From contig JAFLTG010000028.1 in assembly GCA_022510545.1 (NCBI GenBank), positions 1 through 33,397 on the forward strand: a stretch of DNA of 33,397 bases, written 5' to 3'. Each line of letters begins with the position of its first letter. Position 1 is the first letter of the stretch. This DNA comes from Lachnospiraceae bacterium (lineage in GTDB: Bacteria > Bacillota > Clostridia > Lachnospirales > Lachnospiraceae). Positions 22,500 to 33,397 of this stretch are shown in pieces. The translations under genes and the position numbers were made by a program. A model generated the notes under the pieces. That model saw nothing but the letters and a program-made list of their open reading frames with translations, had not been told where the DNA came from and made no database searches.

Positions 22500-22556
22500 A
22501 TACCTGCAGATTAAAAACCACTGGCATTAAAAACTGCAGATATTCTTTATTTTTAT
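22500..22556 (+). terminator. Possible terminator between the convergent subtilase and ABC genes
   Basis: ATACCTGCAG (22500-22509) can pair with CTGCAGATAT-like sequence (22534-22543) with one C/A mismatch and a 24-base loop, followed by TCTTTATTTTTAT. The stem is imperfect and the loop long, so this is a weak call. Confidence 0.35.
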
Positions 22557-23383
22557 AAAACCTTAGATAAAAATTCTTTAAGACGCGGATTCTTCGGATT
22601 ACCAAAAAATTCCTCCGGAGAACCGCTTTCTAAAATCTGTCCCTCATCAATGAAAATCACCTTGTTAGCCACTTCTCTTGCAAATCCCATCTCGTGGGTT
22701 ACAATGATCATTGTCATGCCATCTTTTGCCAAGGATTTCATCAAATCCAGGACCTCTCCTACCATTTCAGGATCTAAGGCACTGGTGGGTTCATCAAACA
22801 GAATTACATCGGGATTCATAGCCAGAGAGCGTACAATGGCAACCCTCTGTTTCTGGCCTCCTGAGAGGGTAGAAGGATAAACGTCTGCCTTATCCTCCAG
22901 ACCAATCCGTTTTAGGAGAGCAAGAGCTTCTTCCCTGACTTTTTTACTGATTTCTGTTTTCGTTGTGGTTATAGGAAGCAAATCCTTTTTTTCCGCTTCT
23001 TTCCGGAACAGATTGGAAATGCGTATGCCCAGGTTTTTACGTTTGTCTCGGCGTATATCCTGACACTGCAGATACATTGGAGCCAGCATGATGTTTTCGA
23101 TCACTGTCTTATTATTAAAAAGATTAAAGTGCTGGAACACCATTCCCATATGTCTTCTGTGTACATTGATATCCACCTTCATGTCTGCAATGTCCACTCC
23201 GTTAAAGATAATCTGTCCGCCGGTAGGGTCCTCCATACAGTTTAAGCAGCGCAGGAAAGTACTCTTGCCTGAGCCGGAAGGACCGATAACCACCACAATA
23301 TCGCCTTTATCAATTTTAACATTAATGCCACGCAGTACCTGCATTTCGCCAAAATGCTTTTCCAGATTAATTACGTCTATCAC
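22553..23383 (-). CDS. Polar amino acid ABC transporter, ATP-binding protein
   Basis: ATPase of a GlnQ/ArtP-type importer, 276 residues against a usual 240-250. Walker A is GPSGSGKST (34-42), the signature is [10 protein letters not shown], Walker B is [19 protein letters not shown] and the switch His is in IVTHEMGFA. The extra length is a Lys/Arg-rich insertion of about 35 residues between the Q-loop region ([10 protein letters not shown]) and the signature, around [18 protein letters not shown]. It overlaps the permease gene by 17 bases and is the last gene of a three-gene operon on the minus strand. The specific amino acid is not deducible. Confidence 0.93.
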
Positions 23384-24077
23384 TTTTTCTCAGGCTCCTT
23401 TCCATAATTTTAATGCCCGCGCTGATGATCAGCACAAGCAAGATATAAATGACTGCCATAACAAGATAAGGAACCATGAATTCGTAACTGTTGCTGCCTA
23501 TGTAGTTAAATGCCACATAAAGATCTGCCGCGCCTACAAAGCTGACAACAGAGGTTTCCTTCACCAGGGCAATAAATTCGTTGCCCAGGGTAGGAAGGAT
23601 ATTCTTTACTGCCTGAGGTATTACGATTTTTACCATGGTTGTGCTAAAACTTAAGCCTACTGCGCGTCCGGCTTCCATCTGCCCATGGTCTACGGACAAG
23701 ATACCGCTCCTCATGATTTCAGATATATAAGCGCCGCTGTTTAGACCAAATACCAGTATAGACACCTGTACGCCTGTGATGCGAAGACCCATTAGGGGCA
23801 GCATAACGTAATAGAACACCAGCAGCTGCACCACGATAGGCGTGCCACGGAACAGCCCCACATAAAAGCTGCAGAAACCGTTTAAAATACGGGGCAGCAG
23901 CTTATACTTGGGGATAACCCTTACCGTAGCAATAAGTGTACCGATGATAATACCGATGAACAGTCCCAACACAGCGATCATAAGTGTGTTTTTTAAACCC
24001 TCTATGACCCTTACATAGCCGTTCTGTTCCATAAATATGTATATAAAGTTATCTACTTTCTGACTAAAATTTCCCAT
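23367..24077 (-). CDS. Polar amino acid ABC transporter, permease
   Basis: A 236-residue His/Glu/Gln/Arg/opine-type permease with about five membrane helices. The EAA loop reads [31 protein letters not shown] (about 131-161; EAG...G.........I.LPQA pattern), which docks to the ATPase. AGAGGAT precedes the ATG. The gene lies 14 bases after the binding-protein gene and overlaps the ATPase gene. It probably works as a homodimer because no second permease is present. Confidence 0.93.
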
Positions 24078-24091
24078 TTAATCCTCTATAC

Positions 24092-24988
24092 CTATTGCAT
24101 TTTGTTGATGGATTCCGTAATGAAAGCCGCCGGTGCGGAATCAATGATAACATACTGGATATTGCCGTTTAATAAATCCTGCACTGCCAGTGCTCCGTTC
24201 TTGTACCCTACCGCTGTCGCTGCAAAGCCGTCAAATTCCCAGTCTTCATCACCTTCTACATAGAACTGGCCTGTTGTACCGTTCTGAACGCCGATTTTTA
24301 CACTACTGTCCTTTTCATTCAAAATTGCCTCTATAGCAGCCGCATCCGTGCAGGAATCAAACTCCGTATCGTCAGAAAGAGTGATAAGCCTCTGGGAAGC
24401 AACATAGTAGGATGTTGAAAATGTTACATACTCCTCCCTGTCAGGTTTAACCGTAAGTCCTGCCATTGCAATATCGCATTTCTGCTGGCCTACTGACAGG
24501 CATACGGCATCAAAATCCATATTCTGGATAACCAGCTCCTTGCCAAGGTAGTCTGCCAACGCTGCGGCAATCTCCATATCTACACCGTAGTAGCTGTCGC
24601 CCTTGGTGTATTCAAATGGCTCAAAAGCAGCGTTAGTTGCAACTAACAACTGATCTTTGCTCTCATCCAAAGTTGCGGAAGTTACCGGATCAGGCGTACC
24701 GTCGCCGAAATACTTGTTACAGATTTCATCAAAGGTACCGTCATCTTGAATCTGTTTGATGAAGTCGTTGACGGAATCAAGCAGCTCAGGCTGGGTCTTA
24801 TCCACGCCAAAAGCATATTCCTCATCGGTCAGATCCACCTGGATTACCTTCACGGTTTTTTTAGAGCTGTCATCACCGCTATTATTGCTGTTGCTGCTAT
24901 CATTGCTGTTACTACTGCCGTTACCGCATCCGGCTAAGGCTGCCACAACAGTTACTGTGGCAAGTGCGATTGTAATAAATTTTTTCAT
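24092..24988 (-). CDS. Amino acid ABC transporter substrate-binding lipoprotein, apparently circularly permuted
   Basis: A 298-residue family 3 binding protein with lipoprotein signal ALAGC (Cys21) and an Asn/Ser/Asp linker (22-44). The order of the fold is unusual. Residues 45-96, with VDLTDEEYAFGV, QPELLDSVNDFIKQI, DDGTFDEI and NKYFG, match the segment that normally ends such proteins (lobe-1 return strand and last helices). The canonical beginning follows at residue 114 (LLVATNAAFEPFEY, GVDMEIAAALADYLGKE, DIAMAGLTVKPDREEYVTFS). The chain then ends at lobe 2 with VIIDSAPAAFITESINKMQ, where a normal protein would continue into LTDEEYA. The reading frame is continuous, so this is not a frameshift. 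It is the first gene of the operon, with GGAGG before the ATG. The ligand is presumably a polar or charged amino acid. Confidence 0.9.
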   Translation of the reverse strand: MKKFITIALATVTVVAALAGCGNGSSNSNDSSNSNNSGDDSSKKTVKVIQVDLTDEEYAFGVDKTQPELLDSVNDFIKQIQDDGTFDEICNKYFGDGTPDPVTSATLDESKDQLLVATNAAFEPFEYTKGDSYYGVDMEIAAALADYLGKELVIQNMDFDAVCLSVGQQKCDIAMAGLTVKPDREEYVTFSTSYYVASQRLITLSDDTEFDSCTDAAAIEAILNEKDSSVKIGVQNGTTGQFYVEGDEDWEFDGFAATAVGYKNGALAVQDLLNGNIQYVIIDSAPAAFITESINKMQ

Positions 24989-33054: not shown

Positions 33055-33120
33055 GAGACACAATATAATCAATAATATGCAGGTAAAAGTTTAAATACGC
33101 CATACATACCAAAGATTAAT

Positions 33121-33209
33121 CTGCTTCCTTACGCCGGTATTATCCGGTTCAAGTAGTGAGGGTTAGAAATATTGTGTATATTTCAATCTCAGCAATGTGC
33201 TCCCCTAGC
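33121..33209 (-). ncRNA. TPP (thiamine pyrophosphate) riboswitch aptamer
   Basis: On the minus strand the conserved THI-box elements occur in order: AGGGGAGC, GCTGAGA, ACCC, then CTTGAACCGGATAATACCGGCGTAAGGAAGC-type 3' half (with GGATAAT and CCGGCGTAAGGA as key blocks). CCGG-ATAATA-CCGG makes the P4/P5-side hairpin, and the GCTA/AAGC ends can close P1. It lies about 97 bases upstream of thiT. A TTGACT at 33245-33240 may be its -35, but no good -10 was found at the right distance. Confidence 0.93.
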
Positions 33210-33397
33210 GATTATTTAGTTAACATAATAGTGCCTGTAAGTCAAGCATCAGTTTATGTATATTGATACTATAAAGATATATTATGTATTTGTCAAGTTG
33301 TAAGACTTATTAAGGTATTTATAAATTGAAATTTGTGGCTGGGCCTGAAAGACGGATTGCACAAATAGTAAGCTGGCTGGTGGTCGGCTTTCGGGAA
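33210..33397. other. A+T-rich intergenic sequence to the window edge, no gene called
   Basis: Bases 33210-33330 are A+T-rich and should contain the thiT promoter. The last ~65 bases are more G+C-rich, and three minus-strand frames enter from the right edge but close within 25-38 codons without recognisable protein sequence. I see no RNA gene or repeat here. Confidence 0.5.

Follow-up and report, generated by a model that had tools for sequence, protein, structure and literature searches.

In the canonical family-3 substrate-binding protein (SBP), lobe 2 is inserted into lobe 1, the hinge is crossed twice and both ends of the chain lie on lobe 1. The window, by which the whole stretch of 33,397 nucleotides analysed here is meant, carries a gene whose product seems to depart from this plan, as the sequence that ordinarily closes such proteins stands in front of the sequence that ordinarily opens them. 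An earlier note on this DNA had proposed a natural circular permutation. The question raised by the locus is whether the exchange is genuine, whether the rearranged protein still serves transport, and how often such proteins have arisen. The evidence makes it very probable that the gene codes for an SBP lipoprotein that serves an ABC importer for polar amino acids, and that this protein represents a circularly permuted form of the family-3 (type II, cluster F) fold.

The gene and its operon

The SBP gene is the head of an SBP-permease-ATPase operon of the polar amino acid type (Table 1), and its reading frame is unbroken, as the earlier note had stated. The motif LAGC is taken by us to be a lipobox; Cys21 is conserved in at least 90% of the 60 rows of alignment A1. 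This alignment and alignment A3 each combine 59 of the 80 relatives from named genomes, described below, with the window protein. The names of lobes and hinge strands given to the segments come from knowledge of the fold and presumably hold for the window protein.

Table 1. Features of the permuted SBP gene and of its operon in the window.
Feature	Positions	Strand	Basis or remark
Family-3 substrate-binding lipoprotein gene, very probably circularly permuted	24092..24988	minus	298 aa + stop, ATG start, uninterrupted ORF
Signal peptide with putative lipobox LAGC, residues 1-21	24926..24988	minus	sequence and conservation
Low-complexity Ser/Asn linker, residues 22-44	24857..24925	minus	sequence; model
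Segment 3, residues 45-96: lobe-1 part that is C-terminal in canonical proteins, with second hinge strand, now first	24701..24856	minus	alignments, segment profiles
Joint, residues 97-113, old C-terminus to old N-terminus	24650..24700	minus	alignments
Segment 1, residues ~114-206: lobe-1 part that is N-terminal in canonical proteins, with first hinge strand	24371..24649	minus	profiles, model
Segment 2, residues ~207-298: lobe 2; chain ends where segment 3 is expected	24095..24370	minus	profiles
Permease, same operon	23367..24077	minus	PF00528; TIGR01726 above cut-off
ATPase, same operon, GTG start	22553..23383	minus	best NCBIfam match GlnQ, below cut-off

A search of the window with Rfam gave nothing near the operon, the only match being a TPP riboswitch aptamer elsewhere (33109–33216, minus strand; 67 bits against 54.3). 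When 16 of the 80 named-genome loci were searched in the same way, two matches were obtained, both at least 1.7 kb beyond the SBP gene.

Exchanged order of the segments

A phmmer comparison with PDB chains placed two stretches of the window protein on the same chain of AncCDT-1 (5t0w) in exchanged order: residues 102–291 aligned with residues 11–189 (i-E 7.7e-16), and residues 46–94 with residues 197–245 (i-E 4e-5). The profile of alignment A1 was split likewise by AncQR (4zv1), with positions 103–280 on 10–173 (i-E 2.8e-25) and positions 32–87 on 178–233 (i-E 4.5e-7). The swapped split was found in four of the five alignments listed for this profile against the PDB; the fifth, 6h30, is a tandem SBP. 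PF00497, the sole Pfam match of the window protein, also occurs in two stretches. Model positions 97–131 are encoded by the upstream DNA and positions 1–97 by the downstream DNA, which is not collinear with the canonical order. The score is 103.7 bits against a curated cut-off of 26.4, and all 60 members of alignment A1 match at E ≤ 0.001.

The best stretch of TIGR01096 runs from residue 104 to 287 and covers positions 15–184 of 250. Since the match stops at position 184, residues 97–298 do not hold the full-length unpermuted SBP that the earlier note had named as the alternative to its own reading. The companion idea, that residues 45–96 are an unrelated N-terminal domain, was rejected on the basis of the PDB, PF00497 and TIGR01096 alignments. 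All 11 NCBIfam SBP models listed (GlnH, HisJ, ArtJ, TIGR01096 and others) scored far under their cut-offs (GlnH, 96.8 against 303); permutation by itself lowers such scores. As the profile libraries used report permutants as split partial matches, annotation can hide permuted SBPs.

To describe the order, three segment profiles were built from 11 canonical relatives: segment 1 comprises the opening part of lobe 1 together with hinge strand 1, segment 2 corresponds to lobe 2, and segment 3 comprises hinge strand 2 and the last two helices of lobe 1. The canonical order is 1-2-3, and the window protein reads 3-1-2 (type A). Across 134 ORFs that belong to the lineage of the window, the match to segment 2 stops at model position 68–73 of 75 and that to segment 3 begins at position 1–4 of 53; the profiles are thus covered nearly end to end, which indicates that the rotation is close to exact. 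The earlier note had claimed that the C-terminal segment (residues 45–96) precedes the N-terminal one (residue 114 on) and that the chain stops where the tail should come. The first claim is confirmed by the PDB, PF00497 and segment-profile alignments, and the second by the end of segment 2. From the limits of the segment profiles and from the predicted elements, the chain would be cut where hinge strand 2 ordinarily follows the last helix of lobe 2.

In the 60 sequences of alignment A3, segments 3 and 1 and the joint between them make up a block of 162 columns without an indel. In the moved tail, L53, T54, E56, Y58, A59, F60, D63, L69, N74, G84, I89 and F94 are invariant in 60 sequences, which indicates that the tail is conserved rather than decaying. 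This bears on the idea that the protein is the relic of a GlnPQ-like tandem SBP, in which the first copy has lost its start and the second its end, so that folding is incomplete and residues 45–96 are a relic or a spacer. Tandem SBPs do exist: one match to 6h30 spans the border between two copies, and in one related locus (L120) a single frame encodes three canonical copies. However, a strongly conserved tail, a near-exact rotation without overlap, an order that persists in operons across the Clostridia and a lobe 1 that is predicted to be compact with the tail included make such a relic very improbable. The tandem route may describe the origin of the permuted SBP, not its present state.

Two cysteines of the window protein, residues 90 and 163 (24717–24719 and 24498–24500, minus strand), are a possible disulfide or metal site, as far as can be read from the sequence. 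They stand in motifs that are characteristic of the window's lineage. An EICxKYF-like motif was found in 103 of 145 ORFs of order 3-1-2 and a FD[AS]VCL motif in 120 of the 145; each was found in none of 65 ORFs of type B (defined below) and none of 46 canonical ORFs.

Predicted structure

The full-length protein was modelled with AlphaFold2 from 60 sequences (mean pLDDT 86.6, pTM 0.71), and pLDDT falls below 50 only at residues 20–40. Foldseek matched this model to family-3 SBPs, best to 4prs (E 3.8e-10), over 189 columns of the 226-residue target; a linear aligner must miss the out-of-order tail, hence the partial coverage. All 50 structures listed as matches bear titles of SBPs for amino acids or opines, of the related cyclohexadienyl dehydratases, or of ancestors of these. 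The 20 best PDB matches have rmsd values of 4.0–7.0 Å over 173–195 columns, which indicates that the lobe-to-lobe arrangement of the full model is not well fixed. The comparison with known SBPs that the earlier note had suggested agrees as to the GlnBP-like two-lobed α/β content and leaves the lobe orientation uncertain.

A separate model of lobe 1 (residues 45–206, comprising the tail, the joint and segment 1) reached a pLDDT of 93.6 and a pTM of 0.88, with values of 95–97 in the ten-residue blocks that contain the joint. It fits GlnBP structures at 1.3–1.4 Å over 82–84 columns, a length that fits segment 1, the aligned range not being shown. On the strength of pTM and pLDDT, we read this as a contiguous lobe 1 that is predicted to be compact, the tail packing in cis. 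The suggestion of the earlier note that the old termini are joined on lobe 1 and the chain is opened at the lobe-2 exit is supported by the sequence and by this model.

The ArgBP of Thermotoga maritima shows tail swapping, and the tail of the window protein could by analogy pack in trans, in a domain-swapped dimer whose lobe 1 is completed by the tail of the neighbour. The confident monomer model of lobe 1 and the short joint, which is free of indels in 60 aligned sequences, argue for packing in cis and make the swapped dimer improbable, although both observations are still compatible with it.

Occurrence in the Clostridia

When one genome per species was scanned, 217 relatives were obtained, of which the best 80 were kept. 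The search for homologues of the same order, as proposed in the earlier note, was successful, as all 80 kept loci of named genomes read 3-1-2. According to the record titles, 79 of these 80 relatives are Clostridia and one belongs to Thermoflexaceae. The order is also present in records that are not titled MAG (Mediterraneibacter massiliensis, Eubacterium ruminantium and Eubacterium sp. MSJ-21), and in two genomes for which a single contig is listed (G035, G191; sequences L020 and L016). The genome of the window is a fragmented assembly (178 contigs, completeness 87%), which could have pointed to an artefact of assembly or annotation. That reading is refuted by the order shared among the 80 named-genome loci and the single-contig genomes, and its probability is negligible.

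Genomes drawn at four taxonomic ranks were surveyed as well. In the draw from the window's family, at least 32 of 299 genomes (its own included) carry the window's lineage, all 32 being read as sequence, and a further genome (G030) has a different 3-1-2 protein, L119. The order draw, family members included, gave at least 15 of 344 genomes with the window's lineage, spread over three families, and one genome beyond these (G409) with the other 3-1-2 type. In the class draw, at least 19 of 255 genomes carry the window's lineage and at least four the other 3-1-2 type; 17 of these 23 were read as sequence and six were judged by match span. Seven of the 398 genomes of the phylum draw match at E ≤ 1e-28, two of them (both of the window's family) with order 3-1-2 and five with the canonical order. 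The distribution counts are lower bounds, since few candidates were scored per genome and the thresholds were strict. The surmise that similar arrangements are widespread in Clostridia is supported by the family, order and class draws together with the survey of named genomes.

Within the window's genus, the permuted gene looks patchy. Another genome of that genus, G060, which is listed as 100% complete, has three matches at E ≤ 1e-8 (L262, L263 and L264): two SBPs in canonical order and an ORF that shows only segment 1.

A second, complementary permutation

Another type of relative (B) starts in lobe 2 and ends after segment 1. Its order, 2-3-1, is the complementary permutation; only the orders 3-1-2 and 2-3-1 render both lobes continuous, and each keeps a single hinge crossing. 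In 10 of 49 ORFs, B is fused to a permease, which is attached after segment 1. A full-span match to a B protein was found in 61 of the 299 genomes of the family draw, of which 41 were read as sequence; the other 20 were assigned from match span and ORF length, and tandem canonical arrays could be concealed among them. Genome G195, which has such an array (L120), was excluded from the count. Among the 255 genomes of the class draw, 18 match a B protein at E ≤ 1e-45, and by sequence 13 of them are B and five are 3-1-2.

A set of 260 loci was fetched with permuted and canonical queries, and its order counts are therefore not frequencies: 145 ORFs read 3-1-2, 65 read 2-3-1 and 46 read 1-2-3 (131, 60 and 43, respectively, when only those distinct in the last 200 aa are counted). 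Six more ORFs score for segments 1 and 3 or for segment 1 alone (divergent canonical proteins), and one is a triple 1-2-3. Since each segment scores at least 13 bits in all 145 ORFs of order 3-1-2, the swapped order is not due to chance. The classified ORFs of these loci include no intermediate, for instance one of order 3-1-2-3. The window's lineage and a B match do not occur together in any of the 299 family genomes (6.5 expected; hypergeometric 4e-4), a comparison confounded by shared ancestry.

Viral and plasmid sources were searched as well. In viral contigs, 179 pattern matches yielded no confirmed relative of B order, BFVD gave no match at E ≤ 0.001, and none of 68 plasmid records with a match had 80% of the query in one place.

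Ligand site and role in transport

Arg184, Asp283, Gly177, Thr179, Phe122 and Phe159 are invariant in the 60 sequences of alignment A1. Arg184 and Asp283 align with an Arg and an Asp of AncQR, and we assume that these positions contact the α-carboxylate and the α-amine of the ligand, respectively. The permuted protein would still close on an amino acid and deliver it to its permease. The first 227 loci, some of whose ORFs recur between loci, were inspected for a neighbouring permease. Such a gene follows the SBP gene on the same strand, or is fused to it, in 122 of 128 ORFs for order 3-1-2, 49 of 49 for 2-3-1 and 45 of 46 for the canonical order. The sole 3-1-2 SBP in frame with a permease among the 128 ORFs (L080:3968–5593, 542 aa) comes from a MAG and is possibly a sequence error.

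A different role is suggested by one gene (L123:510–2654, the same gene as L265), which encodes a 715-aa Ser/Thr kinase (PF00069 and PF00497) with a 3-1-2 SBP as its C-terminal sensor domain. The permuted proteins might on this model have left transport to act mainly as anchored sensors or receptors. Such a shift is quite improbable in view of the permeases just counted, and a full-length kinase match was obtained in only one of the 26 genomes searched, its own.

The ATPase of the operon has an insertion between Walker A and LSGGQ that appears by eye to be rich in Lys and Arg. The spacing of these two motifs is 103 in all 37 ATPases beside canonical SBPs and 102–103 in all 32 beside B; beside 3-1-2 SBPs it ranges from 103 to 172, with a median of 137 (129 ATPases).

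Number of origins

Trees were built on segments set in one common order; since all were reordered alike, segment order cannot drive the grouping. The 82-row tree leaves out L123 and L118, and the 109-row tree leaves out L123, L118, L258, the domains of L120 and the divergent canonical rows. In both SBP trees, rows with segment 1 only were left out and near-identical rows were thinned. In the 109-row tree, the window's lineage (A1) forms a single clade (100/100) on a long stem. A second 3-1-2 group of seven rows (A2) lies among canonical proteins, L119 beside the canonical L205 and the other six together, and L254, also 3-1-2, is placed elsewhere with weak support. The B rows make up a large clade and a divergent group beside other canonical proteins, with L234 as a single unresolved row. 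This tree needs seven order changes, and its strongly supported branches force at least three changes to 3-1-2 and at least two to 2-3-1.

A single origin of all permutants was rejected by the AU test (p = 0.0025 with 109 rows, 0.0134 with 82 rows). With 109 rows, neither all A as one clade (p = 0.133) nor all B (p = 0.098) was rejected, and with 82 rows the same was true of A1 with A2 (p = 0.093), B with L125 (p = 0.338) and A1 with B (p = 0.084). In a tree of the permeases, those of the window's lineage stand apart (100/100) and the two A2 permeases examined lie among canonical ones; joining A1 and B was marginally rejected (p = 0.044), and joining A1 and A2 was not (p = 0.193). The joints between the old termini are mostly 16–21 residues long, recognisably alike within each lineage and different between groups. 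That permutants arose at least twice is a firm conclusion, and four or more origins are our best guess.

The likely source of the permutants is a duplication in tandem and in frame, the product of which was then cut back to another stretch of the repeat; this would have happened in several lineages, the cut falling in either hinge linker. The locus L120, in which three nearly identical canonical SBPs in tandem are joined to a permease (973 aa), shows a possible kind of precursor.

Possible consequences for the hinge and the tether

The former C-terminal segment (hinge strand 2 and the last two helices) stands at the front in the window protein, and a conserved joint of 17 residues connects it with the former N-terminal strand. 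One of the two covalent hinge connections would thereby be cut and one would remain, the cut second hinge strand probably still packing in place. The lipid tether would enter the hinge side of lobe 1, leaving the free end on lobe 2, whereas in the B-permease fusions the N-terminus would be on lobe 2 and the permease would follow lobe 1. The effects on tethering, permease docking and affinity are putative; a change in anchoring and docking, as the earlier note had suggested, is structurally reasonable.

A wider reading is tentative, and we would give it somewhat short of an even chance. The Clostridia would have un-nested both SBP lobes repeatedly and independently, at least four times, in the only two lobe-preserving ways (lobe 1-lobe 2 and lobe 2-lobe 1), by cutting either hinge linker. 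The results would be single-hinge SBPs with tethers on different lobes, in which closure pulls on the membrane anchor or, in B fusions, on the permease, i.e., a mechanically coupled importer that perhaps has a lower affinity and releases faster.

Comparison with known systems

Family-3 SBPs are the textbook case of the hinge-bending model, and the two natural permutants suggest that a version with a single covalent hinge has been retained by evolution. Matched natural sets (1-2-3, 3-1-2 and 2-3-1) beside homologous permeases offer tests of the hinge strands and of the tether position, and the permuted SBPs are ready-made scaffolds for sensors, for which such permutants are now built by hand. 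The findings also bear on the idea, cited in PMC9815098, that duplication and domain dislocation gave rise to the periplasmic-binding fold from two lobes, as the interleaving is here undone.

Compared with the family-3 (cluster F) SBPs GlnH, HisJ, LAO and ArtJ, the window protein is likewise a lipoprotein, is homologous over the mature length, belongs to the same type of operon and conserves the ligand contacts. It differs in its order 3-1-2, in a lobe 1 that is contiguous, in ends that would lie on different lobes and in a single putative hinge crossing. Two hinge crossings and both termini on lobe 1 are thus absent from it, as judged from its order and, for the hinge, from fold knowledge and PMC5087393.

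In the open-access literature, TpMglB-2 (Tp0684) with its homologues, for which the name "Type Ic / Cluster Bc" was proposed (PMC4990184), was the sole natural permuted SBP found, and a family-3 report in a subscription journal is possible. The portions of PMC3597751, PMC7683729, PMC6335823 and PMC3454389 that were available hold nothing bearing on a natural family-3 permutant. A natural permuted SBP was thus already known in another fold cluster. According to the sections of PMC4990184 used here, TpMglB-2 resembles the window protein as a natural circular permutant and a tethered SBP that also occurs in Gram-positive gut bacteria. It is, however, a Type I (cluster B) sugar binder with a different cut, and its permutation added a fourth lobe crossing, whereas that of the window protein would remove one. 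In the same sections, the authors gave adaptation to anchoring as a possible reason and saw no obvious mechanical advantage. The window protein is not a member of Cluster Bc, as PF00497 is its only Pfam match and its listed structure matches are of another kind.

The B fusions recall the GlnPQ-type and tandem SBP-permease fusions (6h30, L120), which hold SBP domains in one chain with each other or with a permease. In those fusions every SBP domain is canonical, whereas the B fusions place the permease after segment 1.

The closest counterpart is man-made. In the engineered cpLAO-BP, one interdomain linker was deleted and the termini were joined by (GGS)4, and the protein still binds lysine and arginine (PMC5087393, section 3.1). 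By analogy, a permutant of this kind can work. Its lysine binding of 107 µM is 36-fold weaker than the literature value for the native protein, which shows that the function of a permutant need not be unchanged. The two proteins share the fold cluster, the cut in one linker, a short joint between the old termini and new termini on different lobes. The engineered protein differs in its (GGS)4 joint and its flanking fluorescent proteins, and section 3.1 of that paper does not state which linker was deleted; in the window protein, the same kind of rearrangement is very probably natural.
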